A stretch of DNA of 64,000 nt, taken from assembly GCF_001713375.1 (NCBI RefSeq), contig NZ_CP016449.1:3410001-3474000 (forward strand), in the 5' to 3' direction. Below are positions 11,931-38,582 of this stretch, in pieces. The position numbers were made by a program, and so were the translations under genes. The notes beneath the pieces were generated by a model. The model saw nothing but the letters and a program-made list of their open reading frames with translations, did no database searches and was not told where the DNA came from. Position 1 is the first letter of the stretch. Every line of letters starts with the position of its first letter. The stretch comes from Hydrogenophaga sp. RAC07 (GTDB taxonomy: Bacteria > Pseudomonadota > Gammaproteobacteria > Burkholderiales > Burkholderiaceae_C).

Positions 11931-12967
11931 GGCGCTTTGCCGCCCGCCTGCAGGCGCTGCATGGGCGCGCCGTCGATGAGTTCTTGCCAGCGTGGCGTGC
12001 GCTGGAGCAGCCCGATCGACTGCAGGGCGCCGGCAACGATCAAGGCTTTTTCCACCAGCGGTGGTGGGTCGCCCTGCAGTTCTTGCGCGCAAGCGCCGGC
12101 GGATTGAAATGCCAGTCCCCCCAACACCGCCTGGTAGGCAGCCGGCGACAGGTCGGTGCCCCGCGACAGCAACTCCGCTGCGCCGGGCAAGTCGCGCGTG
12201 AACAGGTCCAGGCCGGCGTACCAGGCTCGCAGCAAAGCGTCCACCGCTTCGGGGCGCTGCTCCAGCACGTCGGTGCGCACCACCAGCACATCCAGGATCT
12301 CGCCCGGGAGTTCGCGGCTGTCGAAGATCCGACGAAAGCCGGCGGCTTCGATCGCGCCCGCCAGAGGCTCGTAGGTCACGGCCGCCGCGGCCTGGCCCGA
12401 CAGCAGCGCCTCGAGATGGCGGGCGACTTCGATGTTGGTCACCTTCACGTCGGCGCGTGTCAGACCGGCTTTCTGCAAGGTGCGTTGCAGCAGCAGGGCG
12501 CCCACGGCCGAGTCTTCCACCGCGACGAATTCACCCTTGAGCTGTGCCGCCGAGGTGATGCGCGGCGCCGCCAGCACCGCATCGCCGCCGGTGGACTCGT
12601 CCAGCACCGCCACGATGCGCACCGGCACACCGCTGTCAACCAGACGCAGGGTTTCATCGAGCGTGAGCGTGGCCGCGTCGAGCAGGCCATTGCGCAGGTG
12701 GCGCAGCGTTTCGGATGCCGACGCCAGTTCCACCACCCGCAGCTGTTTTGCATCGGCCAGGCCACGGTCGCGCGCCAGCACCAGCGGGTCGTAACCGACC
12801 CAGGGGTTCATGCCCACCGTGATGGGCGGTACGACCGACTCACCACAGGCCGCCAGCGACAGCAGCATGGCCGCCATCAGCACTCGCCAGCCACGGCGCA
12901 ACCATCTGCCCGGCAGATCACCCCTCCCTTGTCCACCCGCCCTCGAAGGGCTTGCGCCATGTTTCAT
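11927..12967 (-). CDS. NMT1/TauA-type solute-binding lipoprotein coupled to a kinase
   Basis: This 346-residue periplasmic binding protein is of the SsuA/TauA/NMT1 class. After an Arg-rich N-terminus comes a lipoprotein signal with lipobox LAAC (MAAMLLSLAACGES). The fold begins with ITVGMNPWVGYDPLVLARD and contains LDAATLTLDETLRLVDSG, RIVAVLDESTGGDAVLAAP and AAAVTYEPLAGAI, all standard for the family. The start is taken at 12967; a Met closer to the lipobox is possible. No permease or ATPase for this class lies next to it. It sits first in an operon with a membrane kinase, so a sensory role is more likely than transport. The ligand is unknown. Confidence 0.88.
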   Translation of the reverse strand: MKHGASPSRAGGQGRGDLPGRWLRRGWRVLMAAMLLSLAACGESVVPPITVGMNPWVGYDPLVLARDRGLADAKQLRVVELASASETLRHLRNGLLDAATLTLDETLRLVDSGVPVRIVAVLDESTGGDAVLAAPRITSAAQLKGEFVAVEDSAVGALLLQRTLQKAGLTRADVKVTNIEVARHLEALLSGQAAAAVTYEPLAGAIEAAGFRRIFDSRELPGEILDVLVVRTDVLEQRPEAVDALLRAWYAGLDLFTRDLPGAAELLSRGTDLSPAAYQAVLGGLAFQSAGACAQELQGDPPPLVEKALIVAGALQSIGLLQRTPRWQELIDGAPMQRLQAGGKAP

Positions 12968-23409: not shown

Positions 23410-23412
23410 CCC

Positions 23413-24384
23413 ATGGACGAACTCGACGCTTCGCTGGCGCTGCAGATCCGCCAGATCCGCCTGGAAGCCACCGGCATCCACTCGTTTGAACTTCGCGCGC
23501 CCGACCACGAGCACCTGCCCGCCTTCACCGCCGGGGCGCACATCGATGTGCACCTGCCTGGCGGCCTGGTGCGCCAGTACTCGCTGTGCAACGACCCGGC
23601 GGAGTCGCACAGGTATGTCATCGGGGTGTTGAAGGACCTCAACGGACGCGGTGGTTCGCTGCGCGTGCACGAGGCGTTGAAGGTCGGTGACACGGTGAAG
23701 GTGAGCCGCCCGCGCAACCAGTTCGAGTTGCAGCCGCAGCAGACATCGGCCCTGCTGATCGCCGGTGGTATCGGCATCACGCCGCTGAAGTCCATGGCGC
23801 ACAGCCTGCTGCAGGCCGGCACACCGTTCGAACTGCACTACTGCGCACGCTCCTGCGAGGTGGCGGCGTTCACCGAAGAGCTGGTTGAACTCAACCGCCG
23901 GGTGCCGGGCTCGGCACGCTGGCATTTCGACAACGGTGTGGTGGGCGCGGGGCTGGATCTGGCGGCGCTGCTCGCGGTGCAGCCTGCGGGCACGCACCTG
24001 TATTTCTGCGGACCGCCCGGTTTCATGAAAGCCTGCGCGCAAGCCGCGGCGCACTGGCAGCCGGGCACCGTGCATTCGGAACACTTCCAGGCACCCACCC
24101 GGGCCGAGCCGCTGGCTCCCACCACCGGCGCCACCCTGAAGTTGTCGAAGTCGGAGCGGGAACTCGTCCTGCCCGAAGGCAGCAACCTGCTGGACTTTCT
24201 GGACCAGCACGGCATTCATGTGCCCACCTCGTGTGTGAGCGGCCTGTGCGGCACCTGCAAGACCGGTTATGCCGACGGCGAGGTCGAGCACAACGACTTC
24301 ATCCTGGACGACGCCGAGAAGAACCATTGCCTCACGCCCTGCGTGTCCCGCATCTTGAGCCGCAGCATCACGCTGCACCTGTGA
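23413..24384 (+). CDS. VanB/PDR-type oxygenase reductase
   Basis: This 323-residue electron-transfer protein takes electrons from NAD(P)H to the Rieske oxygenase. The order is that of phthalate dioxygenase reductase: flavin domain with RQYSLCNDP (about 55-65), NAD(P) domain with LLIAGGIGITPLKSMA and YFCGPPGFM, then a plant-type [2Fe-2S] domain with CVSGLCGTCKTGY and a distant fourth Cys in NHCLTPC. The family uses FMN. It starts 3 bases after the oxygenase stop, so the two are one operon and one enzyme system. Confidence 0.94.
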   Translation: MDELDASLALQIRQIRLEATGIHSFELRAPDHEHLPAFTAGAHIDVHLPGGLVRQYSLCNDPAESHRYVIGVLKDLNGRGGSLRVHEALKVGDTVKVSRPRNQFELQPQQTSALLIAGGIGITPLKSMAHSLLQAGTPFELHYCARSCEVAAFTEELVELNRRVPGSARWHFDNGVVGAGLDLAALLAVQPAGTHLYFCGPPGFMKACAQAAAHWQPGTVHSEHFQAPTRAEPLAPTTGATLKLSKSERELVLPEGSNLLDFLDQHGIHVPTSCVSGLCGTCKTGYADGEVEHNDFILDDAEKNHCLTPCVSRILSRSITLHL

Positions 24385-25261: not shown

Positions 25262-25411
25262 ATGAACCTGAACCTGAGCATTGGCCCCCTGGTGGCCCTC
25301 ATCGCCGGCATCCTCATCCTCGTGATGCCGCGCATGCTGAACTACATCGTTGCCGTCTACCTGATCATCGTGGGCGTGATCGGCCTGTTCGGCCGCAACC
25401 TCGGTTTGTGA
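25262..25411 (+). CDS. small membrane protein, DUF3096 type
   Basis: This 49-residue protein runs from MNLNLSIGPL to FGRNLGL. It has two hydrophobic segments, about 7-21 and 28-44, separated by MPRMLN. The sequence matches the short DUF3096 family of two-helix inner-membrane proteins, common in proteobacteria and of unknown function. The strong hairpin at 25446-25479 terminates the transcript. Confidence 0.8.
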   Translation: MNLNLSIGPLVALIAGILILVMPRMLNYIVAVYLIIVGVIGLFGRNLGL

Positions 25412-25513: not shown

Positions 25514-25527
25514 TCTTGAATACAAGA
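25514..25527. promoter_or_regulatory. operator core at left end of catabolic island
   Basis: TCTTGAATACAAGA, within CATCTTGAATACAAGACG, is a near-perfect palindrome of the FCD-GntR kind. It lies 75 bases before the binding-protein gene at 25603. The same 14 bases occur in reverse orientation at 38268-38281, before the convergent operon. GntR at 30240 is the likely binder. Confidence 0.78.
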
Positions 25528-25602
25528 CGGAATGCTCACGCTTGGTGCGGGCCGCTTCCATCCTGGTGCGTCATTGTTTGTTCAACCCGCTGGAGCCCAT
25601 CC

Positions 25603-26619
25603 ATGAAGACCTTCACCGCCACCGCCCTGTCCACCTCGACCAACCGACGCACCGTGCTGCAGCTTGGCGCTGCGGGTGCGGCCATCGGCCTGCTGGGCGC
25701 GCCCGGCATCGTGCGCGCGCAGGCCGCCACCAAGGTCCGCCTGGGTTACTGGCCCATTGCCGCAGGCCTGCCGTTCTACTCGGCCATCGAGCTGGGCTAT
25801 TTCAAGGAAGCCGGTCTGGACGTCGAGCCGCTCAAATTCGCCGGTGCGCAGCAGGTCATGGAAGCGGTGCTCTCGGGCCGCTCCGATGGCACGGCCAACG
25901 GCACCGGTTCGGCCAACATCGCCATCGGCGAACTGGCCCAGCCCGGCACCTTCAAGATCTTCTGCTCCAACCCGAGCAACGTGAAGAACGTGCTCGACGA
26001 GGTCATCGTGCCCGTGGCGAGCCCCGCCAAGGTGATGGCCGACCTCAAGGGCAAGCGCGTGGCTTCGGGCCCCGGCATCCAGAACGTGACGCTGGCCAAG
26101 ACCATCCTGGAGCGTGGTGGTGCCACCGGCGCCACCGTGGTCGAGTTGCCGATCGGCCAGCACGTGGCCGCGCTCGCCGCCGGCCAGATCGACGGCGCCT
26201 ACACGCTGGAACCCACGGGCACCATTGGCCGCATGAACGGCACCAGCCGCGTGCTGGAGGCCGGTGTCATTGCGCGCTATGTGCTGGGCGACAACATGGC
26301 GCCGTGGTTCGGCGGCTCGGCGTCGCTGTCGTCCGAGTTCATCAAGAAGAACCCCGAGGCGGCGAAGAAGTTTGTCGCAGCCTACGCCAAGGGTGTGGCC
26401 TACGTGCGCAGCAAGCCGGTGGAGGCACGCAAGTACCTCACGGGCTACACCCCCATCGAAGGCGCCCTCGCGGGCGAGGTGCCGCTGGCCGCCTACACCA
26501 TGTACAGCGAGTTCACGCCCGCCGACATCGGCCACTTCCAGAAGTTCTTCGACCTGTTCTCCGAAAAGGGCATCTTCAGTTCGCGTCTCATGGTCGACAC
26601 CATGATCTACAAAGGCTGA
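25603..26619 (+). CDS. NMT1/TauA-type ABC substrate-binding protein
   Basis: This 338-residue periplasmic protein has a Tat-like signal (NRRTVLQLGAAGAAIG, cleavage near VRAQA). The mature protein starts VRLGYWPIAAGLPFYSAIELGYF, the family opening of nitrate/sulfonate/pyrimidine-precursor type binders. It is the first gene of the rightward operon, next to its permease and ATPase. Because the operon continues with AtzG/E/H-like genes, the ligand is probably a nitrogen-rich ureide or heterocycle rather than sulfonate. The start at 25603 is the Met directly before the signal. Confidence 0.92.
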   Translation: MKTFTATALSTSTNRRTVLQLGAAGAAIGLLGAPGIVRAQAATKVRLGYWPIAAGLPFYSAIELGYFKEAGLDVEPLKFAGAQQVMEAVLSGRSDGTANGTGSANIAIGELAQPGTFKIFCSNPSNVKNVLDEVIVPVASPAKVMADLKGKRVASGPGIQNVTLAKTILERGGATGATVVELPIGQHVAALAAGQIDGAYTLEPTGTIGRMNGTSRVLEAGVIARYVLGDNMAPWFGGSASLSSEFIKKNPEAAKKFVAAYAKGVAYVRSKPVEARKYLTGYTPIEGALAGEVPLAAYTMYSEFTPADIGHFQKFFDLFSEKGIFSSRLMVDTMIYKG

Positions 26620-26624
26620 ACGCG

Positions 26625-27440
26625 ATGGAAGCCGCCAAGCCCTGGACCCCGCCCGCAGCCAACGCCCCCGTGGCCACGGCGCGCAAGACCGATTGGGGCC
26701 GCGCCCTGCCCTTCGTGGGCCCGGTCGTGCTCTTCATCATCTGGGACCTGGTGGTGCGCACCGGCTTCATCAAACCCATCCTGCTGCCCGCACCGGTGGA
26801 TGCCATCGGCGCCCTGCTCAGCGGCCTGGCCGGTGGCCCGCTGCTGACCGACTTTGCCGTGACCGTCTGGCGCACGGTGCAGGCCTTCCTGATCGCGGCT
26901 GTGGTCGGCATGCCCCTGGGTGTGCTGCTCGGCAGCAACGAGAAGGCCTACCGCAGCGTGGAGTTCCTGATCGACTTCTTCCGCTCCACGCCCTCGTCGG
27001 CCCTCATCCCGCTGTTCCTCATGGTGTTCGGCGTGTCCGACATCAACAAGGTCGCCATCGCTGCGTTCGGTGCGCTGCTGATCGTGATCTTCAACAGCGC
27101 CTACGGCGTGATCAACGCGCGCAAGCAGCGCGTGATGGCGGCCAAGGTGATGGGCGCCACGCGCTGGCAGGTGTTCAAGGACGTGTTGATCTGGGAGAGC
27201 CTGCAACCCAGCTTTGTGGGCCTGCGCTCGGCCGTTTCCATGGCGCTGGTGATCGTGATCGTGGCCGAGATGTTCATCGGCGCCGACAGCGGCCTGGGCA
27301 ACCGCATCATCAACTCGCAGCAGGTGATGAACGTGAAGGACATGTACGCGTCCATCCTGGCCGCGGGTGCGCTGGGCTATGCGCTCAACGTGCTGTTTCT
27401 CTTGATCGAACGCAAGATCGTCCACTGGAGCGGAAGATGA
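26625..27440 (+). CDS. ABC transporter permease (TauC/SsuC type)
   Basis: This 271-residue inner-membrane permease is of the BPD-transporter family. About six hydrophobic segments are visible, beginning FVGPVVLFIIWDLVVRTGF. The cytoplasmic EAA-type loop reads KVMGATRWQVFKDVLIWESLQP at about 175-195, but only the GA(x)6K-like core is conserved. The start is 5 bases after the binding-protein stop, and the stop overlaps the ATPase start (ATGA at 27437-27440). It is the channel of the first importer in the island. Confidence 0.93.
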   Translation: MEAAKPWTPPAANAPVATARKTDWGRALPFVGPVVLFIIWDLVVRTGFIKPILLPAPVDAIGALLSGLAGGPLLTDFAVTVWRTVQAFLIAAVVGMPLGVLLGSNEKAYRSVEFLIDFFRSTPSSALIPLFLMVFGVSDINKVAIAAFGALLIVIFNSAYGVINARKQRVMAAKVMGATRWQVFKDVLIWESLQPSFVGLRSAVSMALVIVIVAEMFIGADSGLGNRIINSQQVMNVKDMYASILAAGALGYALNVLFLLIERKIVHWSGR

Positions 27441-28258
27441 GCACTGTGTTGAATGCCCCCGTGTTTGCCGACGTGCCCGCGCCTGCCTTCCAGCCCGGTC
27501 CGGCCGGCACGCACATCACCATCCGCGGCCTCACCAAGTACTTTGCCGGCTGGCCGCTGTACGAGAACTTCGACCTCGACATCCCCAAACACAAGATCGT
27601 CTCGGTGTTCGGGCCCAACGGCTGCGGCAAGAGCACGCTGATCAACATGATCGCGGGCCTGGTGCCGATCGACAGCGGCGAGATCCTGTTCGACGGCAAG
27701 AGCCTGAAGGACACCAAGATCGGCTACGTGTTCCAGAACTACCGCGAGGCCATGTTCCCGTGGATGCGCACCATCGACAACATCGCCTACCCGCTCAAGC
27801 TCGAAGGCAGGAGCAAGGCCGAGGTGGACCGCCGCATGGCCGAGCTGGTGGCCTCGTTCGACGTGAAGTTCGACCTCAACCGCTACCCCTACGAACTCTC
27901 GGGCGGGCAGCAGCAGACCGCGTCGATCATGCGGGCGCTGGCGCCCAACCCCGAGGTGCTGTTCCTCGACGAACCCTTCTCTGCGCTGGACTTCGAGATG
28001 ACGCTGTTCATCCGCGAGAAGCTGCAGGAGGTTTTCATGCAGACCGGCACCACCATGGTGCTGGTCTCGCACGACCTGGAAGAAGCCGTGTACCTGGCCG
28101 ACCAGGTGCTGCTGCTCACCAAGCGGCCCACCAAGGTGGCCGAGATCCTGCCTTACGACGACCCGCGTCCGCGCACCACCGCCACGCTGTCCGAGGCCAG
28201 CTTCATCGCCGCGAAAAAGCGCAGCCTGGAAATCTTCCAGCGTGAGGTGCGCCGATGA
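27437..28258 (+). CDS. ABC transporter ATPase (TauB/SsuB type)
   Basis: This 273-residue cytoplasmic ATPase has Walker A GPNGCGKSTL, Q loop YVFQNYREAMFPWM, signature LSGGQQQTASIMRAL, Walker B VLFLDEPFSALDF and the switch His in LVSHDLEEA. The signature is LSGGQQQ, and the Arg usually found after it is Thr here (QQQTASIMRAL). That change is worth noting but also occurs in relatives. ATGA overlaps join it to the permease upstream and to the AtzG-like gene downstream (28255-28258), so transport and hydrolysis genes are translationally linked. Confidence 0.94.
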   Translation: MSTVLNAPVFADVPAPAFQPGPAGTHITIRGLTKYFAGWPLYENFDLDIPKHKIVSVFGPNGCGKSTLINMIAGLVPIDSGEILFDGKSLKDTKIGYVFQNYREAMFPWMRTIDNIAYPLKLEGRSKAEVDRRMAELVASFDVKFDLNRYPYELSGGQQQTASIMRALAPNPEVLFLDEPFSALDFEMTLFIREKLQEVFMQTGTTMVLVSHDLEEAVYLADQVLLLTKRPTKVAEILPYDDPRPRTTATLSEASFIAAKKRSLEIFQREVRR

Positions 28259-28461
28259 ACGAGCCGCAGACCCTGGCCTATGTGCAGGCCGCGGCCCTGG
28301 CCGTGGACCTGCCGCTGAGCGAAGCGCAAGCGCAGCGCGTGGCCACCCACCTGCAACGCACCGCGGTACTGGCTGCGCTGCTCGACGGCTTCGAACTGGC
28401 ACCGCACGACGAGCCCGCCGAGATCTACTGCCCGGCGCCGTTTCAAGCTTCACAACACTGA
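28255..28461 (+). CDS. atzG: AtzG/HpxX-like small partner of amidase (DUF4089)
   Basis: This 68-residue protein matches the DUF4089 family. It reads MNEPQTLAYVQAAALAVDLP, then SEAQAQRVATHLQRT, then DEPAEIYCPAPF at the C-terminus. In the cyanuric acid pathway AtzG is a GatC-like belt that stabilises AtzE, and in oxalurate catabolism the homologue is HpxX. Here the gene is directly before the AtzE-like amidase, 9 bases apart, as in both known systems. It overlaps the ATPase gene by ATGA. The name reflects family and order; the substrate is not proven. Confidence 0.85.
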   Translation: MNEPQTLAYVQAAALAVDLPLSEAQAQRVATHLQRTAVLAALLDGFELAPHDEPAEIYCPAPFQASQH

Positions 28462-28470
28462 GGGCGCGCC

Positions 28471-29865
28471 ATGAACGCTCCCTTGTCCCTGAGTCAGGCT
28501 GCGCAGGCGGTGGCCAGTGGCAGCCAGAGCGCCGCCGGGTTGCTCGAAGCCTGCATCGCGCGCATCGAAACCACCGACGGCCGCGTGAACGCCTTCACCG
28601 GCACCCGCTTTGAAGCCGCCCGGGTACAAGCCGCGCGGGTGGACGCACAACGCGCGCGCGGCGAACCGCTGGGTCCGCTGGCCGGTGTGCCGTTCGCGGT
28701 GAAGAACCTGTTCGACATTGCCGGTGAGGTGACCCTGGCCGGCTCGCGGGTCAACCGCACCGACCCACCCGCCAGCACCGACGCGGTGCTGGTGGAACGC
28801 CTGCAGGCCGCTGGTGCGGTGCTGGTGGGCTCGCTCAACATGGACGAGTACGCCTACGGATTCACCACCGAAAACACCCACTACGGCCCCACGCGGAACC
28901 CGCACAACCTGGACTGCTCGGCCGGTGGATCGTCGGGCGGATCCGGCGCGGCGGTGGCCGCAGGACAGGTGCCGCTGACACTGGGGTCGGACACCAACGG
29001 CTCGATCCGCGTGCCCTCCTCGCTGTGCGGCGTGTGGGGCCTCAAGCCGACCTTCGGCCGGCTCTCGCGACGCGGCAGCTACCCGTTTGTGCACAGCCTG
29101 GACCACCTCGGCCCGTTTGCCGACGACCTGCCCGGCCTGGCCCTGGCCTACGACGCGCTGCAAGGCGCCGATCCGCTGGATCCTGGGTGCCACGCCACGA
29201 CCGTGCAGCCCACCGTGCGTTCGCTGGGCCTGGGCATCAAAGGCCTGCGCGTGGGTGTGCTGGGTGGTTACTTCGCCGAACATGCCACCGCACCCGCGCG
29301 GGAGGTGGCAGCGCTCGCTGCGCAGGCCCTGGGCGCCACGGTCACCATGGAATGGCCCGACGCCGTGCAGGCGCGCGCGGCGGCCTTCATCGTGAGCGCC
29401 AGCGAAGGCGGCGCCCAGCACCTGCACCGCCTGCGCACGCAAGCCGCCGACTTCGAGCCGCTGTCGGTGGACCGCTTCATCTCGGGCGCGCTGCAACCCG
29501 CCGCGTGGTACGTGCGCGCGCAGCGCTTTCGCCGTGTCTACCGCGACAAGGTCAACGCCCTGTTTCGCGACTGGGACGTGCTGATCGCGCCCGCCACGCC
29601 CGTGCCGGCGCAGCCCCTGGGCACCGAGTGGGTCGAGATCAACGGCCAGCGCCTGCCCTGCCGCCCCTCCATCGGCCTGCTCACGCAACCTATTTCGTTC
29701 GCGGGCTGCCCGGTGGTCGCGGCGCCGCTGTGGCCCTCGGGTACGGAAGGCCTGCCCATCGGCGTGCAGCTGATCGCCGCCCCCTGGCGCGAAGACCTGG
29801 CCTTGCGCGCCGGCATGGCGCTGCACAATGCGGGCCTTGCCCACTGCAAACCCGTGGAGTTCTGA
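28471..29865 (+). CDS. atzE: AtzE/HpxY-like amidase (carboxybiuret-type hydrolase)
   Basis: This 464-residue amidase-signature hydrolase shows the Ser-cisSer-Lys triad as K78 (GVPFAVKNLFD), S154 (AGGSSGGSGAA) and S178 (DTNGSIRVPSSLCG). The gene order atzG-atzE-atzH and close family match point to the AtzE group. Its best-studied member deaminates 1-carboxybiuret; HpxY acts in oxalurate breakdown. The reaction is amide hydrolysis releasing ammonia. There is no cyanuric acid hydrolase in the window to supply carboxybiuret. That compound could come from triuret, or the real substrate may be another ureide. Confidence 0.9.
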   Translation: MNAPLSLSQAAQAVASGSQSAAGLLEACIARIETTDGRVNAFTGTRFEAARVQAARVDAQRARGEPLGPLAGVPFAVKNLFDIAGEVTLAGSRVNRTDPPASTDAVLVERLQAAGAVLVGSLNMDEYAYGFTTENTHYGPTRNPHNLDCSAGGSSGGSGAAVAAGQVPLTLGSDTNGSIRVPSSLCGVWGLKPTFGRLSRRGSYPFVHSLDHLGPFADDLPGLALAYDALQGADPLDPGCHATTVQPTVRSLGLGIKGLRVGVLGGYFAEHATAPAREVAALAAQALGATVTMEWPDAVQARAAAFIVSASEGGAQHLHRLRTQAADFEPLSVDRFISGALQPAAWYVRAQRFRRVYRDKVNALFRDWDVLIAPATPVPAQPLGTEWVEINGQRLPCRPSIGLLTQPISFAGCPVVAAPLWPSGTEGLPIGVQLIAAPWREDLALRAGMALHNAGLAHCKPVEF

Positions 29866-30240
29866 ATGGATATCAACCTGCCCGACGTGCTGGCCGAGGT
29901 GACGGCCGCCTTTGAGCGCTATGAGCAAGCCCTGGTCGGCAACGACGTGGCTGTGCTCGACGAGCTGTTCTGGGACAGCCCCCACACGCTGCGTTATGGC
30001 GCCACCGAAAACCTCTACGGCATCGACGAAATCCGCGCGTTTCGCAATGGCCGACCTGCGGCCGGCCTGCAGCGCACGGTGCTGCGAACGGCCATCACCA
30101 CGCACGGCCGGGATACCGCCACCACCAACATCGAGTTCCAGCGCGAGGGCAACCCACGCATCGGCCGCCAGAGCCAGACCTGGGTGCGCATGGCCGAGGG
30201 CTGGCGCGTGGTCTCGGCCCACGTGAGCTGGATGGCCTGA
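29866..30240 (+). CDS. atzH: AtzH/HpxZ-like protein (DUF3225)
   Basis: This 124-residue SnoaL/NTF2-fold protein matches the DUF3225 group, including [21 protein letters not shown] and [19 protein letters not shown]. AtzH has been proposed to process the 1,3-dicarboxyurea made by AtzE to allophanate, and HpxZ is the oxalurate-pathway relative. The start follows the AtzE stop with no gap and the stop overlaps the GntR start (TGATG). The atzG-E-H order is complete and intact here. Confidence 0.87.
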
Positions 30241-31001
30241 TGGCCAAGCATCCCGCCACAGCCCCCACGCGGACCCTGCGCCCGGTGCGCGCCCGCTCCG
30301 CCAAGGCCGTCGTCGTGGAACCCTTCCAGTCGCGCGCCGAAGAGGTCTACCGCCAGGTCAAGCAGGACATCGCCGACTTCCGCCTGGTGCCCGGCGACCG
30401 CTTCACCGAACACGAACTCTGTGCCCGGCTGGACGTCTCGCGCACGCCGGTGCGCCAGGCGCTGTTCCGCCTGCAGCAAGATGGCCTGGTCGAGGTGATG
30501 TTTCGCAGCGGCTGGCGCGTGCTGCCGTTCGACTTCGACAAGTTCGACCAGCTCTACGACCTGCGCATGGTGCTCGAGACGGCTGCGGTGCAACGCTTGT
30601 GTCTGCACGACGTGGCGGCCTCATCGCCGCAGTTGCAGGCGCTCAAGGAACGCTGGCTGGTGCCGGTGGCCGAGCGCAGCACCGACCCGGCCGAGGTGGC
30701 GGCCTGGGACGAGGCCTTTCACGAGACGCTGGTGAGCGCGGCCGGCAACGCCGAGCTGGCGCGCGTGCACCACGAAGTGACCGAGCGCATCCGCATCATC
30801 CGCCGGCTCGACTTTCTGCAACAGGTGCGCATCGACGCCACCTTTGAGGAACACGCCAAGATCCTGCGCGCCATCCTGGCGCGCAAGGCCGACCGCGCCG
30901 ACCTGCTGCTGCGCTCGCACATCCAGGCCAGCCAGAGCGAAGTGCGCAAGATCACCCTGCACCAGGTGTACCTGGCGCAGCAGGTGGCGCCGGCGGCCTG
31001 A
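30240..31001 (+). CDS. GntR/FCD transcriptional regulator of the island
   Basis: This 253-residue regulator has a 30-residue basic leader, a winged helix (about 35-95, with FTEHELCARLDVSRTPVRQALFRL) and an FCD domain with DEAFHETLVSAAGNAE and EEHAKILRAIL, the acidic/His residues of the ligand or metal pocket. It is the last gene of the rightward operon, sharing one base with atzH. It converges on the leftward operon. The two mirror-image operators at the outer ends of the island are of the type this class binds, so it probably controls both operons and, by read-through, itself. The effector is likely an imported ureide. Confidence 0.92.
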   Translation: MAKHPATAPTRTLRPVRARSAKAVVVEPFQSRAEEVYRQVKQDIADFRLVPGDRFTEHELCARLDVSRTPVRQALFRLQQDGLVEVMFRSGWRVLPFDFDKFDQLYDLRMVLETAAVQRLCLHDVAASSPQLQALKERWLVPVAERSTDPAEVAAWDEAFHETLVSAAGNAELARVHHEVTERIRIIRRLDFLQQVRIDATFEEHAKILRAILARKADRADLLLRSHIQASQSEVRKITLHQVYLAQQVAPAA

Positions 31002-31020
31002 GGCCGCAGACCCTGCGGCC
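31002..31020. terminator. hairpin between convergent operons
   Basis: GGCCGCA and TGCGGCC form a 7-bp stem with a 5-base loop, beginning one base after the GntR stop and ending 7 bases before the stop of the leftward hydrolase. There is no T-run, so this may be a weak bidirectional terminator or merely a barrier hairpin. Confidence 0.45.
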
Positions 31021-31026
31021 AACCGA

Positions 31027-31686
31027 TCACACCCCGGCGAGCAGTTCCTTCGACGTCGCCGACCAGCCCACGATCGCGCCTTGTGCGGTGATCATGGCCA
31101 GCGCCGCCGCGTGGAATTCGGGGAAGTAGCTGGCGGTGCCGTCTTCCAGCACCAGGCAGTCGTAGCCCCGGTCGTTGGCCTCGCGCAGTGTGGACTGCAC
31201 ACACACCTCGGTGGTCACGCCCGCCACCACCAGCTGGGTGATGCCCCGCAACTGCAGCTGCTGCTGCAGGTCGGTGGCGTAGAACGCACCTTTGCCCGGC
31301 TTGTCGATGACCAGTTCACCGGCAACCGGTGCCAGCTCGGGCACGATCTGGTTGCCCGGCTCACCGCGCACCAGCACGCGCCCCATCGGCCCCACGTCGC
31401 CGATGCGCAGGCTGGGCGATCCGCGCAGGCGCTTGGCCGGCGGGCAGTCGCTCAGATCGGGCGCGTGCGATTCGCGTGTGTGCACCACGAGACCACCCAT
31501 GGCGCGCCACGCGGCGAGCACGTTCGCTATTGCCGGCACGATGGCCTGCAGCGGCTCCACCGTGTTGCCCAGCGATTCACCAAATCCGCCGGGCTCCACG
31601 AAATCGCGTTGCATGTCGATGATGACCAAGGCCGCGTGGGCCGGGTCGAATTCGAAGTTGAACGGGCGGGCGGTCACCGTGCTCAT
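31027..31686 (-). CDS. isochorismatase-family cysteine amidase (possibly triuret-hydrolase-like)
   Basis: This 219-residue enzyme is of the cysteine hydrolase branch. The catalytic set can be read as D24 (VIIDMQRDF), K129 ([10 protein letters not shown]) and C162 ([10 protein letters not shown]), with the cis-peptide VTTE. It is a clear paralogue of the gene at 33253-34005: both have HTRExHxPDLSD, GRxLVRGEPG and DKPGKGxFYATDL. One member of this superfamily, TrtA, hydrolyses triuret next to a biuret hydrolase, so a triuret or related ureide amidase is plausible. I cannot separate that from RutB-like or other amidases without alignment. It is the last gene of the leftward operon, overlapping the ATPase by ATGA. 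Confidence 0.87.
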
Positions 31687-33242
31687 GTCAGCGCCTCCTC
31701 CGTCTGCGGTGCGCCCTGCGCCGCTTCTTCGCCATGGCCACCGGCCATGTGGGCGCCCAGCAGCTTGCGGTCGGCACCCTCGGCGGGTGTCTCGAACACG
31801 AGTTGCCCACCGCTGATCACGGCCACGCGGTCGGCCAGCTGCATCAGTTCGTCGAGGTCTTCGCTGATCAGCAGCACGGCCGCACCCCGGTTGCGTGCGG
31901 CCACCAGCCGCGCGTGGATCTCGGCGGTGGCGGCGAAGTCCAGGCCGAAGGTCGGGTTGCTCACCAGCAGCAGCCGCGCCTCGCCCGCGAGTTCGCGCGC
32001 CAGCACGGCGCGCTGCACGTTGCCGCCCGAAAGCGCCCGAATGGGTGCGGCGATGCCAGGGGTCTTCACGCGGTACTCGTCCACCCAGCGCTGCGCCATG
32101 GTGCGCAGCCGGGGCCACCTCACAAAACCGGCCTGTGCCTGCGGCGCTTCGTCGAACAGACGCAGCGCCATGTTTTCCGCCACGCTCATGTCGGGCACGC
32201 AGGCGTTGATGAGCGGCTCCTCGGGGAGGCTGCGCACCTGCAGCACGCGGTTCTGCTGGCGCTTGCCAGCGTAGGCTTCACCGCGCACCGTCACGTCACC
32301 TCCCAGGCGCGCACGCTGACCGGTGAGGGCCTGCATCAGCTCTTTCTGGCCATTGCCCGACACGCCCGCAATGCCCAGGATCTCGCCCGCGCGCACCTGC
32401 AGCGTGAGGCCGTTGAGCGCGAGGTCACCGCGGTCGCCCATCACGGTGAGCTCGTCCACCACCAGCGTCACCTCGGCGTCGAACGGCTGCGCGGTCTTCT
32501 CCAGCAGGGCTTTCTCGGCGGCCTGGCCCACCATGGCGTGCGCAAGCTCGTCGGGGTCGGTCTGCGCCACGGCCTTGCTCAGCACCAGCTGGCCGCGCCG
32601 CAGCACCGACACGTCGTCCGCATAGGCCGTGACCTCGCGGAACTTGTGCGTGATCATGACGATGGAACAAATGCCGGCGTGCGCACGCTCTTTCAGCGCG
32701 CCCAGCACCTCGTCGGCTTCCTGCGGCGTGAGCACCGAGGTGGGCTCGTCCAGGATCAACAGCCGCGGGCGCAGCAGCATCTGCTTGAGGATCTCCAGCT
32801 TCTGCTTTTGCCCGGCCGAGAGGTCGATGGGGTAGGCGTCGAGGTCGAGCGAGAAAGGCGCGCTGGCCATGAAGGCGCCGAGCTCGGCGCGCGCGGCCTT
32901 CCAGTCGATGACGGCAGGCAGCGCGCCGCGCGCGAGCAGCAGGTTCTCGGCCACGGTCATGCCGGGCACCACGGTGAAGTGCTGGTAGACCATGCCGATG
33001 CCGAGCTCGCGTGCCACGCTGGGCGAATGGATGTCCTGCTCGCGGCCGTCGATCAGCACCGAGCCTTCGTCGCCCCGGTGGTAGCCCACCACGGCCTTCA
33101 CAAAGGTGCTCTTGCCCGCGCCGTTTTCACCGAGCAGCGCGTGCACGGTGCCGGGCCGCACGGTGAGCGACACACCATCGAGCGCGGTGAAGGCGCCGAA
33201 GCGTTTGGTCAGCTGGTAGGTGTCGAGTTGAAGCGCGTGCAT
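31683..33242 (-). CDS. BMP-type ABC importer ATPase with two nucleotide-binding domains
   Basis: This 519-residue ATPase has duplicated domains, as in sugar/nucleoside (RbsA, NupB-like) importers. The first domain has Walker [18 protein letters not shown] loop [12 protein letters not shown], signature [14 protein letters not shown] and Walker [16 protein letters not shown]. The second has a degenerate Walker A ([14 protein letters not shown]), [18 protein letters not shown] and [10 protein letters not shown]. The glutamate after Walker B is absent in the second domain ([11 protein letters not shown]), which is typical of the group. It serves the two permeases and the BMP-like binding protein of the same leftward operon. 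Confidence 0.93.
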
Positions 33243-33252
33243 GGGGAGTCCT

Positions 33253-34005
33253 TCACAACGACCGCAGGGCCTGGACGATCGCCGCCGTGTCGCTCACCGC
33301 GCCGAACACACCGCCCTGCATGGGGATCATGTTGAGCGCGGCCTGGTGGTTGCCAGAATCGGTGGCTCCCGTGCCGTCGGACAGCAGCACGCATTCAAAG
33401 CCGCGGTCGTTCGCCTCGCGCATGGTGGTGTGCACACACACGTCGGTGGTGATACCGGTGAGGATCAGGTTGCGGATGCCGCGCGTGTGCAGGATCAGCT
33501 CGAGATCGGTGGCGTAAAACGATCCCTTGCCCGGTTTGTCAATGACCGGCTCGCCGGGCAGCGGGGCGAGCTCGGGAATGATCTCCCAGCCCGGTTCACC
33601 ACGCACCAGGATGCGGCCACACGGGCCGGCGTCGCCGATGCCGGCACCCATCTGCCGAGAGCGCCAGCGCTTGTTGGCCGGCAGGTCCGACAGGTCGGGG
33701 CGGTGACCTTCGCGGGTGTGGATCACGTGCAGGCCGGCGGCACGTGCGGCCGCCAGCACACGGCCAATGGGCCCGATGGGTGCACGCGTGAGCGAGAGGT
33801 CGTAGCCCATGCTGTCCACGTAACCGCCCACGCCGCAGAAATCGATCTGCATGTCGATGATGACCAGCGCGGTGTTGGCCGCGCGCAGGTCGCCGTCGAA
33901 CGGCCAGGCGTAGGGGTGGGCCTGGGCAAACAGGGGCACTGGGGTACCTTCGCCTTGCAGGCTGCGGTGCGAGCTTGCTTGGGAACGGCCCGGCGCTGCG
34001 CTCAT
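33253..34005 (-). CDS. biuret hydrolase-like cysteine amidase
   Basis: This 250-residue isochorismatase-superfamily amidase has D51 ([11 protein letters not shown]), K157 ([10 protein letters not shown]) and C190 ([11 protein letters not shown]) in the catalytic positions. The segments [18 protein letters not shown] and [19 protein letters not shown] match what I recall of BiuH, which converts biuret to allophanate and ammonia. The N-terminal 30 residues are a variable leader. The start overlaps the formamidase stop by ATGA. With AtzG/E/H-like genes in the same island this supports linear-ureide catabolism. The assignment is by family memory, so sequence comparison with true BiuH is the needed check. 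Confidence 0.85.
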
Positions 34006-35027
34006 GGCTTCTCGAGCAGGTTGGGCACATTGCCCACGAAGGTGCGCGTGGGCGGCTCGAAGCCGCAGGAGCGGCCGTCGGTGTGCACCACGTCGGCTTC
34101 CCACGGCAACTTGAAACGACCGGCCACCATGTCCTGCATGAAGGTGTAGGGGCAGTCCTGCGCGCCGCCCTTCACCGCCACATAACCGCGGTGGCTGAAC
34201 TGGTAGGGGTTGTTCTCCACGCCCCAGTGCAGGCGCGCTTCGCGGATCAGGTCGGGGCGGATCTCGGCGCAGATGATCTCGTCGGCCCGGCCACCGCCTT
34301 GCGTGACCACCGTGCCTTCGTGGTCGCAGACCATGGCCTCGCCCATGGAATCGAAACTGCCGTCGCTGCCGCACAGGCACACACTGGCGGTGGCCATGAG
34401 GTTCTGGAAGGCGTTGGCCTGGTTGGTGATCTGCCAGGCGTGGCGGATGGGCGCGGTGTAGCCGGCGGTGCGCAGCATGAGCTCGGCGCCCTTGTAGGCG
34501 CACTCGCGCGCCATCTCAGGGAACATGCCGTCGTGGCAGATGATGAGCGCGAGCTTGATGCCGCGCGGCCCCTCGATCACCGGAATGCCCATGTTGCCGG
34601 GCTCCCAGGGCTCCACCGGCACCCAGGGGTGGAACTTGCGGTAGTAGAGCTTGAGCACGCCCTGGTCGTCAAAGATGATGCCGGTGTTGTACGGATTGCC
34701 GCCGGGGTTGGCTTCCATGATGGAGAAACAGCCCCAGATGCGGTGGGTGATGCAGGCCTGGCGCATGGCCTCGACCTCCGGGCCGTCCATGCTCACCATG
34801 AGCTCGGGCGCGGTGCTCATCGACAGGCCGTGCAGCGCGTACTCGGGGAACACGATCAGGTCCATCTGGGCGTAGCCGCGCCGGGCCTTCCCCACCATGT
34901 CCACGATCTTCTGCGTTTGCGCGGCCAGCTGCGCCGGCGTCTCCACCACCGGCAGCTGCAGCTGGGCCAGACCCACCACCACGCCACCCGGTGACTTGTT
35001 CAGTCCACTCAATCCATTCATCGTCAT
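34002..35027 (-). CDS. amiF: formamidase (AmiF-type nitrilase)
   Basis: This 341-residue nitrilase-superfamily enzyme converts formamide to formate and ammonia. The catalytic Glu-Lys-Cys are E62 ([10 protein letters not shown]), K131 (YYRKFHPW) and C164 (ALIICHDGM). [20 protein letters not shown] and [17 protein letters not shown] match AmiF across the whole length, and length fits (about 334 in the known enzyme). The aliphatic amidase AmiE is longer. A second start at the next Met, 2 codons in, is possible. It sits between the permeases and the BiuH-like gene. Its inclusion suggests that formamide, or a close amide, is either produced in or fed into the route. Confidence 0.92.
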
Positions 35028-35048
35028 TGCTCCCGTTTCAAGAATCGG

Positions 35049-35969
35049 TCAACGCTGCATGCCCAGCTCGCTCGGTGCGCCCCGCAGCACGCGCTGCGGC
35101 GCACAGGTGACCACGAGGATGACCAGCGTCATCACATAGGGCACGGCGTTGAAGAGGTAGTAGTAGCCGGTGACGCCCACCGACTGCAGCGCCGGGCCCA
35201 GCGCGCCCGCGCCGCCAAACAGCAGCGCCGCCCACAGGCAGGCCATGGGCCGCCAGCGCGCAAAGATGACGAGCGCCACGGCAATCAGGCCCTGGCCGCT
35301 GGAGAGGCCCTCGTTCCAGCTGCCGGGGTAGTACAGCGAAAGCGATGCGCCCCCCAGGCCGGCGATGGCGCCGCCCACGGTGGTGGCCAGCGTGCGCACC
35401 CAGGTGACCGAGGTGCCCAGCGCCCGCGCGGCGTCCGACGAATCGCCCACCATGCGCACCAGCAAACCCCAACGCGTGTTGGCAAAGGCCCAGGCCATGA
35501 GCAGTGCCAACACCACGCCGATGGGAAACAGCGCGTTGATGTCGAGCGCGGCGCGCACCTGCGGCGAATCGCTCCAGTTGCCCAGCGGGAGCGAACCCAG
35601 GGTGGGCGCCTGCGGCTGGATCAGCGGCTTGCCGAGGTAGAAGGCCAGGCCGATGCCCAGCATCATCACGCCGATGCCCATGGCGATGTCGTTGACGCGC
35701 TTCATCGAGCACGCCAGGCCGTGCAGCAGCGCCAGCAAGGCACCACTCGCCGAGCCGGCCAGCACGCCCAACCAGGCCGAACCGCTCCAGTACGCCACGC
35801 CGAAGGCGCTCATGGCAGAGAACACGAGCACACCTTCCAGCCCGAGGTTGATGCGGCCCGACTTTTCGGTGAGGCACTCGCCCAGACTCACAAACAGAAA
35901 TGGCGTACCCACCCGGATGGCGCCGCCCAGGATGGCCAGCAACACAGCACCGATCGCGTCCATGTCCAT
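35049..35969 (-). CDS. BMP-type ABC permease 2
   Basis: This 306-residue inner-membrane permease is of the RbsC/NupC-like family, with about eight hydrophobic segments. It includes the conserved TEKSGRINLGLEGVLVFSAM near residue 35-55 and GGAIAGLGGASLSLYY near 215. This short member pairs with the longer one upstream; its start shares a base with that gene's stop (TGATG). Together they form the channel of the second importer in the island. Members with a BMP/PnrA-like binding protein import nucleosides or purine-like compounds. Confidence 0.92.
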   Translation of the reverse strand: MDMDAIGAVLLAILGGAIRVGTPFLFVSLGECLTEKSGRINLGLEGVLVFSAMSAFGVAYWSGSAWLGVLAGSASGALLALLHGLACSMKRVNDIAMGIGVMMLGIGLAFYLGKPLIQPQAPTLGSLPLGNWSDSPQVRAALDINALFPIGVVLALLMAWAFANTRWGLLVRMVGDSSDAARALGTSVTWVRTLATTVGGAIAGLGGASLSLYYPGSWNEGLSSGQGLIAVALVIFARWRPMACLWAALLFGGAGALGPALQSVGVTGYYYLFNAVPYVMTLVILVVTCAPQRVLRGAPSELGMQR

Positions 35970-37051
35970 CAGGCGGCTCCCTTGGGTGCGGCGGGTTGTA
36001 CCGGCGCCGGCTTGAAGGCACTCCAGCGGATGCGCCCACGCGCGGCCTCGGCCGAGAGGATGAGCACGAACACAAAACCCAGCAGCACCTGCACCGAGGC
36101 ATCGGGCAGGCCCAGGCGGCGCTGCAGCAGGCTGCCCGCCGCGCCAAAGCCACCAAGCACGACGGCCACCGGAATGATGGCCAGCGGGTTGTGACGAGCC
36201 GCGAAGCTCACCAGGATGCCGGTGTAGCCCAGCCCGGCGATCACCGATGCGTTGGCCGCCGTGTGCACCGCGGCGATCTCGATGCCGCCGGCCAGGCCCG
36301 CCGCTGCGCCGCCGAGCGCGCAGGCCGTGATGACGAGCCTGCCGGCGGGCAAACCGACCAGGCCGGCGGCGCGCACGTTGCCACCCACCACGCGCGTGGC
36401 AAAACCGTGCGTGGTCTGGCCGAGCCACACGGCGGCGAGCACGCAGCACACCACACCCCACACCAGGCCCCAGTGCACATCAAAGCTGCCGATCGGTCCG
36501 ATCAGCAGACCCTCCTGGAGCGCGAAGGTCGACGGTTTGTTCAGACTCGCCGGGTCGCGCATCGGGCCTTCGACCAGGTGCTTGAACACATTGACCGCCA
36601 CGTAGGCCAGCAACAGGCTGCTGATGGTTTCGTTCACGCCCCGGTACTGGCGCAACCAGCCCGCCAGCGCAATCCAGGCGGCGCCGCCGAGCGCGGCGGC
36701 GAGCATGAGGCTGGTGGTGCCGAACACGCCTTCGGGCACGGCCCACACATAGGGCAAGCCGGCGCAGGCCAGAGCGCCCACGATGAGCGCGCCTTCGCCA
36801 CCAATGATGGTGAGGCCCGCGCGGGCCGGCAAGGCCACACACAGCGCGGTGAGCATCAAGGGCGCGGCGCGCTGCAAGGTGTTCTGCAGCGAGAACGCAT
36901 CACCAAACGCGCCGAAGAACAGCAGCCGCCAGACCTCCAGCGGATCAAAACCCGCAAGCGCCACAAACAGGCCGAACAGCAGCAAGGCACCCGCGATGGC
37001 GAGCACCGGCAGCAGCACGGCCTCGGCGGTGTCGGTGAAACGGCTCGTCAT
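35969..37051 (-). CDS. BMP-type ABC permease 1
   Basis: This 360-residue polytopic permease has QNTLQRAAPLMLTALCVALPARAGLTIIGGEGALIVGALAC at residues about 55-95, of which AGLTIIGGEG is the family hallmark. It also has GVNETISSLLLAYVAVNV and GGNVRAAGLVGLPAGRLVI. About nine hydrophobic segments are visible. The C-terminal tail is Pro/Ala rich (PAPVQPAAPKGAA). It starts 25 bases after the binding-protein stop and is followed directly by the second permease, so the two probably form a heterodimer. Confidence 0.92.
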   Translation of the reverse strand: MTSRFTDTAEAVLLPVLAIAGALLLFGLFVALAGFDPLEVWRLLFFGAFGDAFSLQNTLQRAAPLMLTALCVALPARAGLTIIGGEGALIVGALACAGLPYVWAVPEGVFGTTSLMLAAALGGAAWIALAGWLRQYRGVNETISSLLLAYVAVNVFKHLVEGPMRDPASLNKPSTFALQEGLLIGPIGSFDVHWGLVWGVVCCVLAAVWLGQTTHGFATRVVGGNVRAAGLVGLPAGRLVITACALGGAAAGLAGGIEIAAVHTAANASVIAGLGYTGILVSFAARHNPLAIIPVAVVLGGFGAAGSLLQRRLGLPDASVQVLLGFVFVLILSAEAARGRIRWSAFKPAPVQPAAPKGAA

Positions 37052-37076
37052 GGCGTGGCCTGCGTGCCGCAGTCGC

Positions 37077-38195
37077 TCAGACCTTGCCGACCACGCCTTC
37101 GACCAGGTAGTTCATCGATTCGAGCTCGATCGCGGTCTGCTTGAAGACCTTGCCCTTGGGCACCACCACCTTGCCGGTGTTGTCCTTCACCTCGCCGGCA
37201 AAGATGTCGAAGTCGCCCTTGAGCATGCGCGCCTTGATCGCGTCGGCCTGCTTGCGCGCCGGCTCGCTCACGGCGGGGCCGTAGGCCGAGGTCTTCACGA
37301 AGCCGTCGCGCAGGCCACCGCGCACGAAGTTGGGGTGCGGCTTGCCGGTGCGGGCGGCGTCGATCATGGTGGTCACGGGCGTGACCCAGTTCCACTCGGC
37401 CCCGGTCAGGTAGGCCTGGGGCGCGAGCTTGGACTGGTCGGCGTGGTAGCCACACACCATCTTGCCGCGGCGCGCAGCGGTCTCCACGATCACCTTGGGC
37501 GAGTCCACGTGCATGGTGAACACGTCCACACCCTGGTCGGCCAGGCTGCTGGTGGCTTCGGCCTCTTTCACCGGCAACGACCAGTCGCCCGTGAAGATCA
37601 CGGTGGTGGTGATGCCCGGGTCCACCGAGCGCGCGCCCATGGTGAAGGCGTTGATGTTGCGCAGCACCTGCGGGATCGGCTTGGCGGCGATGAAACCGAG
37701 CTTCTTGCTCTTGCTCATGTGGCCGGCCACCACGCCGTTGAGGTACTGGGCTTCCTCGATGTAGCCGAAATAGCTTGCTGCGTTGGTCGGGTGTTTGCCA
37801 GCCGTCCACAGGCCGCCGCAATGCGCGAAACGCACGCCCGCGTTCTTGGGTGCCACGGCGAGGATGTGGGGATCAAAGTAACCGAACGAGGTGGGAAACA
37901 GCAGCGTGGCGCCGTCCTGCGAAATCATGCCCTGCATGCTGCGCTGCACGGCCTGCGTCTCGGGCACGCTCTCCTCTTCAACCACCTTCACGCCCGGCAT
38001 CTTCTTGAGCACGGCGGCCGATTCGGCGTGCGCCTGGTTGTAGCCGTAGTCGTCGCGCGGGCCCACATACAGAAAGCCCACGGTGATGGGCGCCTGCGCG
38101 TGTGCCACCAGCGGCAGGCCGCTCAATGCCAGCCCGGCACCCATGGCGCCCGAGCCCAGAATCCAGTCGCGACGGTTCCACATTGCCTTGTCCAT
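37077..38195 (-). CDS. BMP-family (nucleoside-class) ABC substrate-binding protein
   Basis: This 372-residue periplasmic protein has a Tat-like signal (NRRDWILGSGAMGAGLALSG, cleavage after VAHA). The mature domain has ITVGFLYVGPRDDYGYNQAHAESA, then GATLLFPTSFGYFDPHILAVA and VDVFTMHVDSPKVIVETAARRGKMVCGYHAD, matching the BMP/PnrA group that binds purines or nucleosides. GAGG lies 6 bases before the start at 38195. It is the first gene of the leftward operon, whose operator begins 70 bases upstream. Among ureide-catabolic clusters a purine-type binder suggests a planar N-rich ligand. Confidence 0.93.
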   Translation of the reverse strand: MDKAMWNRRDWILGSGAMGAGLALSGLPLVAHAQAPITVGFLYVGPRDDYGYNQAHAESAAVLKKMPGVKVVEEESVPETQAVQRSMQGMISQDGATLLFPTSFGYFDPHILAVAPKNAGVRFAHCGGLWTAGKHPTNAASYFGYIEEAQYLNGVVAGHMSKSKKLGFIAAKPIPQVLRNINAFTMGARSVDPGITTTVIFTGDWSLPVKEAEATSSLADQGVDVFTMHVDSPKVIVETAARRGKMVCGYHADQSKLAPQAYLTGAEWNWVTPVTTMIDAARTGKPHPNFVRGGLRDGFVKTSAYGPAVSEPARKQADAIKARMLKGDFDIFAGEVKDNTGKVVVPKGKVFKQTAIELESMNYLVEGVVGKV

Positions 38196-38582
38196 GAGTG
38201 ACCTCTTTTCAAATCCGTTGGTGGGGTGATCGGTGTCTTGCGTCGGATGGGTCCTGACGTAACACCATCTTGTATTCAAGACGATGCACTGCTAGCAATG
38301 GGCGTGCCAAACGCCGCGCCGCAGCCGCTGCAACCTGCGTTTCAAGGGCGTGGAGCGGGATACCCGTGGGCCGCACACGCACGTTGCGGCGTGTGCCCAG
38401 CCGCCCGTCGGGCACGTGCGCAGTGCGTGAGGCACCCGCATGCCCACGCGCGGTGCACGCCGGGCACCCCGGGTCGCACCAGCGAGGCGCGGCGGCTCTC
38501 ACCAGGCCCCGCGCGCCATGGCACACGCCTTGCTGTCACCCGGTGGCGGTGCACATCCCTGCGCCGCCCACCAGGAAACACC
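38196..38582. other. 387-bp divergent intergenic region
   Basis: The stretch separates the leftward BMP operon from the rightward Bug-type binding protein. It contains the mirror operator (38268-38281). Beyond that it is GC-rich with no convincing gene, RNA or repeat. The part from about 38330 to 38580 must hold the promoter of the rightward gene, but I cannot place it. Confidence 0.6.
38268..38281. promoter_or_regulatory. operator core at right end of catabolic island
   Basis: TCTTGTATTCAAGA is the exact reverse complement of the site at 25514-25527. Flanks agree too: CATCTTGTATTCAAGACG here against CATCTTGAATACAAGACG there. It lies 72 bases before the BMP binding-protein start at 38195, matching the 75-base spacing at the other end. 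Confidence 0.78.

Follow-up and report, generated by a model that had tools for sequence, protein, structure and literature searches.

Triuret and biuret are condensation products of urea. The reactions of the triuret hydrolase TrtA, the biuret hydrolase BiuH, the 1-carboxybiuret hydrolase AtzEG and the allophanate hydrolase AtzF are established, and that of the small NTF2-fold protein AtzH has been proposed from in vitro reconstitution. Here, we analyze an island of two convergent gene runs in the Hydrogenophaga sp. RAC07 genome, located in a stretch of 64,000 nucleotides (contig NZ_CP016449.1, positions 3,410,001-3,474,000 of a single-contig 4.67-Mb genome; the whole stretch is called the window below), in which genes for TrtA, BiuH, AtzG, AtzE and AtzH occur together with two ATP-binding cassette (ABC) importers, a formamidase and a GntR regulator. 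Judged from its genes, this island is very probably a triuret/biuret catabolic regulon that imports linear ureides and strips them to ammonia.

Several described systems resemble parts of the island. The TrtA-BiuH-AtzF operons of Herbaspirillum sp. BH-1 and Rhizobium leguminosarum 3841 (PMC7948467) have TrtA and BiuH in common with it, and the island's order of Bmp importer, permeases, formamidase, BiuH, ATPase and TrtA recurs on plasmids of another R. leguminosarum strain (L100; L and G numbers are our handles for loci and genomes) and of Sulfitobacter (L101). Unlike the published TrtA-BiuH-AtzF operons, the island carries AtzGEH instead of a TrtB-like gene, has its AtzF outside, and is made of two operons sharing one palindrome. 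The atzDGEHF operon of plasmid pADP-1 (L095; PMC6219798) shares AtzG-AtzE-AtzH (with AtzE 68% identical) and the AtzEG/AtzH chemistry, whereas in the island TrtA instead of AtzD would supply the carboxybiuret, and BiuH and two importers are present. Clusters of the type atzF-ABC-atzGEH-ABC-amidase, mapped in 2018 across Burkholderiales such as Variovorax, Rhodoferax, Methylibium and others (PMC6219798), are probably of the same kind as the island; they were mapped with no function assigned, atzGEH clusters were reported there to occur rarely with atzD or atzF, and a role concerning nitrogenous compounds was suggested. TrtA was described after that map, in 2020, in work where AtzEG hydrolyzes the TrtA product and is yet named from the cyanuric acid pathway (PMC7948467). 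Contigs of ammonia oxidizers with trtA-biuH-trtB-atzF-bmpA-nupABC (PMC12625717) are like the island in joining a Bmp importer to TrtA and BiuH and unlike it in having the TrtB route or none; AtzGEH is not mentioned in the available portions of that report, and its main text has no word that begins with "formamid". Finally, the Klebsiella oxalurate cluster of the hpxWXYZ type (L099) contains paralogues of AtzG, AtzE and AtzH, flanked by HpxU, an open frame of HpxW size and an amino-acid-type importer, and no BiuH or TrtA was matched in it.

Enzymes of the island

The two cysteine hydrolases can be told apart by several lines of comparison. The product of 33253-34005 is predicted to be BiuH by the curated cut-off and by its residues: it scores above the cut-off of the BiuH model NF050097 (Table 1), its best matches in the PDB are the R. 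leguminosarum BiuH structures (6azo, 381 bits), and it carries the published letter at all 16 positions checked (D36, F41, K142, K145, C175, Q215 and ten more; list from PMC5806882), as well as the BiuH letter at 6/6 positions that distinguish TrtA from BiuH (PMC7948467). The product of 31027-31686, which reaches only 260 bits on the same model and is thus below its cut-off of 370, is predicted to be TrtA by its best PDB match (6xix, 327 bits, then 6xj4, 323 bits, the latter being among the structure entries of PMC7948467; a biuret hydrolase structure scores 235), by 12 published positions and by phylogeny. Specifically, all six catalytic (Asp-Lys-Cys) and binding residues are kept (D24, F29, K129, K132, C162, Q202), all six switch residues are of the TrtA type (F35, N41, A134, E160, Y187, I205), and a tree that sets three BiuH rows as outgroup to 137 TrtA loci places the protein inside TrtA; the TrtA of a Hydrogenophaga metagenome bin (L008) is 94% identical to it.

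A third BiuH/TrtA-like cysteine hydrolase is encoded elsewhere in the same genome (2798350-2798970; L170, left out of the TrtA tree) and scores 250 bits on the BiuH model, below the cut-off. It adjoins a creatininase, with an NMT1-type binding protein some kb upstream, and is possibly part of another ureide or creatinine locus.

An AtzE-family amidase, its AtzG subunit and AtzH are all present in the island. The window AtzE is 68% identical to pADP-1 AtzE vs. 52% to Klebsiella HpxY, and AtzH is 62% identical to pADP-1 AtzH vs. 59% to HpxZ; AtzH also retains the Tyr and Arg positions implicated in its catalysis (PMC6219798, numbered Tyr22 and Arg46 there, which we read as 19 and 43 without a tag remnant). 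An AtzE tree of 68 rows, chosen by AtzE and not by TrtA, was built from all 26 family matches of at least 68% identity, 12 of the 34 weaker ones, loci of the wider order and plasmids, leaving out L113, L131 and L132 (long branches) and L106 and L114 (isolated near the root of an earlier tree). In this tree, pADP-1 AtzE belongs to a clade of 28 rows with a support of 100/100 (bootstrap/Shimodaira-Hasegawa-like approximate likelihood ratio test), of which 18 have TrtA nearby (including L155, labelled by hand since its TrtA is 18 kb away on the same contig), six are other, three are linked to AtzD and one to HpxW. Its sister is the AtzD-linked AtzE of L153, a locus from the window's family. The earlier tree with named rows, which leaned on loci chosen by TrtA, placed pADP-1 AtzE nearest by path to TrtA-linked genes of Caenimonas and other Burkholderiales. 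These trees indicate that pADP-1 atzE descends from the lineage of the window AtzE; it may have come straight out of a triuret cluster or, equally, by way of an AtzD cluster that had arisen earlier within the window's family.

A palindrome shared by both operons

Both ends of the island (25514 and 38281) are copies of the 14-bp palindrome TCTTGAATACAAGA, each ahead of the first gene of one operon. Two copies occur in the window against 0.04 expected, and two copies were found in 0/100 shuffles; in the 4.67-Mb genome, the palindrome has two exact places and one place with one mismatch, compared with one match for a reversed control. The pattern CTTG-N4-CAAG also stands upstream of the first genes of related loci, that is, before 7/8 NMT, 13/44 Bmp and 22/42 AtzF starts (eight duplicate or near-duplicate loci left out), against a background of 2/378 stretches inside genes and 5/1980 shuffled upstream stretches, and it precedes both operons in L008, L108, L144 and L156. 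We infer that the GntR protein controls both operons via TCTTGAATACAAGA.

Proposed pathway

Under our model, the two importers would bring in linear ureides, TrtA would convert triuret to 1-carboxybiuret with release of one ammonia, AtzEG would probably deaminate 1-carboxybiuret to 1,3-dicarboxyurea with release of a second, and AtzH would decarboxylate the latter to allophanate. In parallel, carboxybiuret, which as the TrtA product has a half-life of about 20 min (PMC7948467), would in part decarboxylate spontaneously to biuret, and BiuH would then form allophanate from it and likewise from imported biuret. No allophanate hydrolase gene lies within the island; the last ammonia would be freed by the allophanate hydrolase of the chromosomal urea-carboxylase operon at 1.03 Mb, whose two enzymes score well above their cut-offs (allophanate hydrolase, TIGR02713, 776 bits vs. 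511; urea carboxylase, TIGR02712, 1845 bits vs. 1304). Both operons would respond together through the GntR protein and the palindrome.

It is important to note how these results bear on the original prediction, which had described the island as a linear-ureide regulon. Every gene named there (AtzG, AtzE, AtzH, two cysteine hydrolases, formamidase, two importers and GntR) was recovered, and the regulon reading holds, with TrtA, BiuH and AtzGEH identified, one palindrome common to both operons and variants of it before the same operons in many relatives. The outcome that it had named as refuting, with both hydrolases falling outside the biuret and triuret clades, was not observed: one is BiuH by cut-off and residues, the other TrtA by PDB match, residues and tree. 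The substrate class, left broad at the time, narrows to triuret and biuret as the best reading, while oxalurate and cyanuric acid are disfavored, the latter for want of any AtzD match in the genome.

Two possible forms of triuret catabolism in relatives

So that genomes were not picked by their TrtA, we ran separate searches with the two proteins against 250 genomes from the family of the window, with minima of 249 bits and 56% identity for TrtA (6/74 genomes with a match had only weaker, BiuH-like hits). AtzE was found in 60 genomes, TrtA in 68 and both in 49, which corresponds to an odds ratio of 40, uncorrected for relatedness. In 43 of these 49 genomes the pair is on one contig and never more than 18.3 kb apart; the other six have the two genes on different contigs. 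Among the 68 TrtA genomes, 49 have AtzE, 15 a TrtB-like gene, four neither and none both, and one further genome with a TrtB-like gene (G350) is without TrtA.

The same exclusivity is seen around individual TrtA genes. The 137 fetched TrtA loci comprise 69 with AtzE, 37 with a TrtB-like gene, three with an AtzH-type gene alone, 28 with none seen and none with both; counting once the seven locus pairs in which two collections list one and the same stretch of TrtA DNA, the figures for 130 loci are 65, 34, 3, 28 and 0. Among the 46 loci with at least 8 kb of sequence to the left and at least 4 kb to the right, AtzE is present in 28, a TrtB-like gene in 14, an AtzH-type gene without AtzE in one (Herbaspirillum L066), none in three and both in none; BiuH is missing from four of these 46, all with AtzE. 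A tblastn search over all 178 loci changed no AtzE or TrtB-like call of a TrtA locus beyond L175. The TrtB-like query was an AtzH paralogue from L022, provisionally equated with TrtB because it neighbours TrtA and AtzF and because of the naming in PMC12625717, whose abstract writes atzH where its text has trtB. With this query, the sole match in the RAC07 genome was AtzH itself (43%), and no TrtB-like NTF2 gene was found beside TrtA. On the TrtA tree, five switches between the AtzE and TrtB-like states are needed (taking L066 as TrtB-like and L175 as unlabelled), of which two are forced by well-supported branches; therefore, the pattern does not go back to one single inheritance, and plain Fisher values overstate the association.

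These data suggest a broader model, which we consider slightly more probable than not: triuret catabolism would occur in two mutually exclusive forms, one in which carboxybiuret is decarboxylated by the TrtB-like protein and then usually passed to BiuH, and one in which it is deaminated by AtzEG and processed by AtzH, the second form being the native role of atzGEH, and the carboxybiuret hydrolase of pADP-1 having been recruited from a triuret regulon of Comamonadaceae.

With respect to gene arrangement, the 69 fetched loci with AtzE and TrtA have the two genes on the same strand in 59 cases and on opposite strands in 10, and the convergent layout seen in the window is found again in L008, L108, L152 and L156. 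Among the best 80 loci of a scan of genome contigs for TrtA, BiuH occurs in 61 and a Bmp importer of >50% identity in 54, with contig ends cutting many of them.

A few loci show further variation. In two TrtA genomes (G171 and G475), the TrtA cluster includes an AtzH-type gene, without AtzE. The TrtA clusters of L172 and L188 contain AtzF and an AtzH-type gene (64-65% identical to the window AtzH) without AtzE, and there AtzH may take the place of the TrtB-like gene. In L175, AtzF and the TrtB-like protein lie in one open frame (10664-12913), perhaps a fusion, with no BiuH in the stretch. The L100 and L101 plasmids have a small cupin gene directly after TrtA, where others have AtzF, the TrtB-like gene or GntR, and this cupin could be an unrelated carboxybiuret decarboxylase. 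Three loci (L009, L010 and L012, one of them in Limnohabitans) have TrtA with a distant Bmp importer only; none of the other enzymes sought was seen in these stretches, which are partly cut. Lastly, three near-complete genomes (L143, L154 and L157) carry modules of AtzF, NMT importer, AtzGEH and GntR without a TrtA or AtzD match.

An optional formamidase

AmiF passes the formamidase cut-off of PRK13287 (Table 1), has Glu-Lys-Cys motifs at 60, 129 and 164, which we take to be the formamidase triad, and matches only itself in this genome at E 1e-20. Among 113 loci examined, 68 have both of its neighbours, permease 2 and BiuH, and AmiF lies between them in 36; it is cleanly absent from the other 32, which have gaps of 2-149 bp. 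By per-frame annotation, AmiF is present in 24/49 loci with AtzE, 17/31 with a TrtB-like gene and 12/20 with neither seen. Therefore, AmiF belongs to neither branch; it is an optional gene of such clusters. Our guess is that it might clear formamide arising from formylated ureides such as formylurea, a by-product that the weak formylurea activity of TrtA suggests. A role as substitute for the allophanate hydrolase missing from the island was considered and dropped, given the above-cut-off allophanate hydrolase elsewhere in the genome and the formamidase score of AmiF itself.

Alternative explanations

Several observations weigh against the triuret regulon or its two-form extension. The 137 TrtA loci are a non-random sample drawn from several selections, some fetched for having AtzE and some for lacking it, and the exclusivity of AtzE and the TrtB-like gene is partly inherited. 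BiuH is kept beside AtzGEH, and therefore AtzGEH is not the sole route. Eleven of the 60 AtzE genomes are without TrtA, with AtzD in just one of them, and completeness reaches at least 99% in five of the remaining ten; across 250 genomes of the wider order, TrtA accompanies AtzE in only 12/31 further loci fetched, four of which are contigs of <15 kb. Because TrtB-type clusters can also contain the NMT1 importer, it is no hallmark of AtzGEH. The exact operator pattern is lacking from roughly half or more of the Bmp starts and of the AtzF starts, and a simple scan found no sigma-70 promoter at either operator; a terminator scan there was likewise empty. One rival reading is that the island consists of separate modules that are only co-regulated, Bmp-AmiF-BiuH-TrtA for triuret and biuret and NMT1-AtzGEH for another amide. 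This explanation, which we regard as rather unlikely, draws on the AtzF-NMT-AtzGEH-GntR modules without TrtA (e.g., L143, L154 and L157), on Bmp-BiuH-TrtA modules without AtzE and on the ten AtzE genomes without both TrtA and AtzD. It sits poorly, however, with the strong co-occurrence of TrtA and AtzE at tight distance, which extends to TrtA close to AtzE-AtzH in distant loci (L071, L115 and L124), and with the exclusivity towards a TrtB-like gene, given that TrtB as published acts on carboxybiuret as a decarboxylase; moreover, AtzF in the TrtA-less modules suggests that these, too, make allophanate.

A different possibility is that the island serves general scavenging of urate or purine oxidation products, taking up triuret, biuret, oxalurate and formylurea together, with AmiF removing formamide. 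Triuret does form from urate by peroxynitrite or peroxide, TrtA has slight activity on formylurea (PMC7948467), and AmiF, the only match to itself in the genome, is carried at one constant position by about half of the clusters; yet the formylurea activity is just 0.3% of that on triuret (PMC7948467), and no identified island gene belongs to urate or purine breakdown, so that we deem general scavenging distinctly unlikely. AtzGEH could also really be HpxXYZ and act on oxalurate from allantoin breakdown, given that AtzE and HpxY are one family, that AtzH is nearly as close to HpxZ as to pADP-1 AtzH, and that NCBIfam names AtzH HpxZ. This label is no argument for oxalurate because pADP-1 AtzH bears it as well (its record in L095 reads "oxalurate catabolism protein HpxZ", a name apparently inherited from the family model), and AtzE is closer to pADP-1 AtzE, in the same well-supported clade. 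Further, no HpxW match was obtained at 20-45 kb of the window (with the unannotated L099 open frame as the query), and neither BiuH nor TrtA is known to take part in an oxalurate pathway, which makes an oxalurate function highly unlikely. A cyanuric acid pathway as on pADP-1 is scarcely credible: the AtzE clade does include AtzD-linked genes, but the same search that detected AtzD in 10/250 family genomes gave no match in this one. Hence, we favor the triuret/biuret regulon.

Novelty and implications

The individual enzymes are already published, as are clusters of Bmp, trtA and biuH and a map of atzGEH. Within the literature searched, five features seem new: AtzGEH as a branch in a TrtA context, the mutual exclusion of this branch and the TrtB-like gene, an operator common to both operons, the relationship to pADP-1 and a formamidase that is optional. 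Our literature searches found neither a triuret role for AtzGEH nor this mutual exclusion, and neither the operator nor an optional formamidase, while links within unsearched full texts are possible; nor did they find triuret or biuret hydrolase joined with formamidase, most subscription journals lying outside the search. The original prediction knew of no description of this exact combination. Other genomes share it, since it recurs in many Burkholderiales loci, and atzGEH with ABC importers and amidases was mapped in 2018.

The island joins the atzGEH clusters of 2018 with the TrtA work of 2020 and thereby predicts a substrate for many atzGEH clusters; the 60/250 family genomes with AtzE give the reach of this prediction. 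It also suggests an origin for one of the key genes on the atrazine plasmid known from textbooks, and the operator it provides can be used in screens. Since urea fertilizer contains triuret and biuret as contaminants, the cluster may mark bacteria that recycle both.

Gene content of the island

A seven-gene operon on the + strand (25603-31001) and a seven-gene operon on the - strand (38195-31027) converge and meet at ~31.0 kb (Table 1). By their coordinates, adjacent genes overlap or are at most about 25 bp apart in both, and both runs are spaced as in operons.

Table 1. Features of the predicted triuret/biuret island, in window coordinates
Feature	Position	Strand	Basis or remark
Palindromic operator, copy 1 (TCTTGAATACAAGA)	25514..25527	.	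75 bp upstream of NMT1 binding-protein ATG
NMT1/SsuA-type ABC solute-binding protein	25603..26619	+	PF09084 E 4.6e-19; start ATG 25603
ABC permease (BPD_transp_1)	26625..27440	+	PF00528 E 7.3e-21
ABC ATPase of NMT1-type importer	27437..28258	+	profile search
AtzG, predicted small subunit of 1-carboxybiuret hydrolase	28255..28461	+	PF13318 E 8.5e-12, 45.7 bits, cut-off 24
AtzE amidase, predicted 1-carboxybiuret hydrolase	28471..29865	+	TIGR02715 681 bits, cut-off 426
AtzH, predicted NTF2-fold decarboxylase	29866..30240	+	PF11533 E 8.4e-63; NCBIfam HpxZ 214, cut-off 135
GntR/FCD regulator, proposed binder of both operators	30240..31001	+	PF00392, PF07729
TrtA, predicted triuret hydrolase	31027..31686	-	6xix 327 bits; 12/12 TrtA positions; tree
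Two-domain ABC ATPase of Bmp-type importer	31683..33242	-	PF00005, two stretches
BiuH, predicted biuret hydrolase	33253..34005	-	NF050097 420 bits, cut-off 370; 16/16 BiuH positions
AmiF formamidase	34002..35027	-	PRK13287 540 bits, cut-off 406
Permease 2 of Bmp-type importer	35049..35969	-	profile search
Permease 1 of Bmp-type importer	35969..37051	-	PF02653 E 1.8e-23
Bmp-family binding protein	37077..38195	-	PF02608 E 8.5e-37
Palindromic operator, copy 2 (TCTTGAATACAAGA, other reading)	38268..38281	.	72 bp upstream of Bmp ATG

Upstream of the island, a Rieske oxygenase and an NAD/2Fe-2S reductase are encoded at 21850-24384 (+). Both were considered as members of the island and dropped, as ~1.2 kb with other frames and a DUF3096 gene (25262-25411) intervenes.

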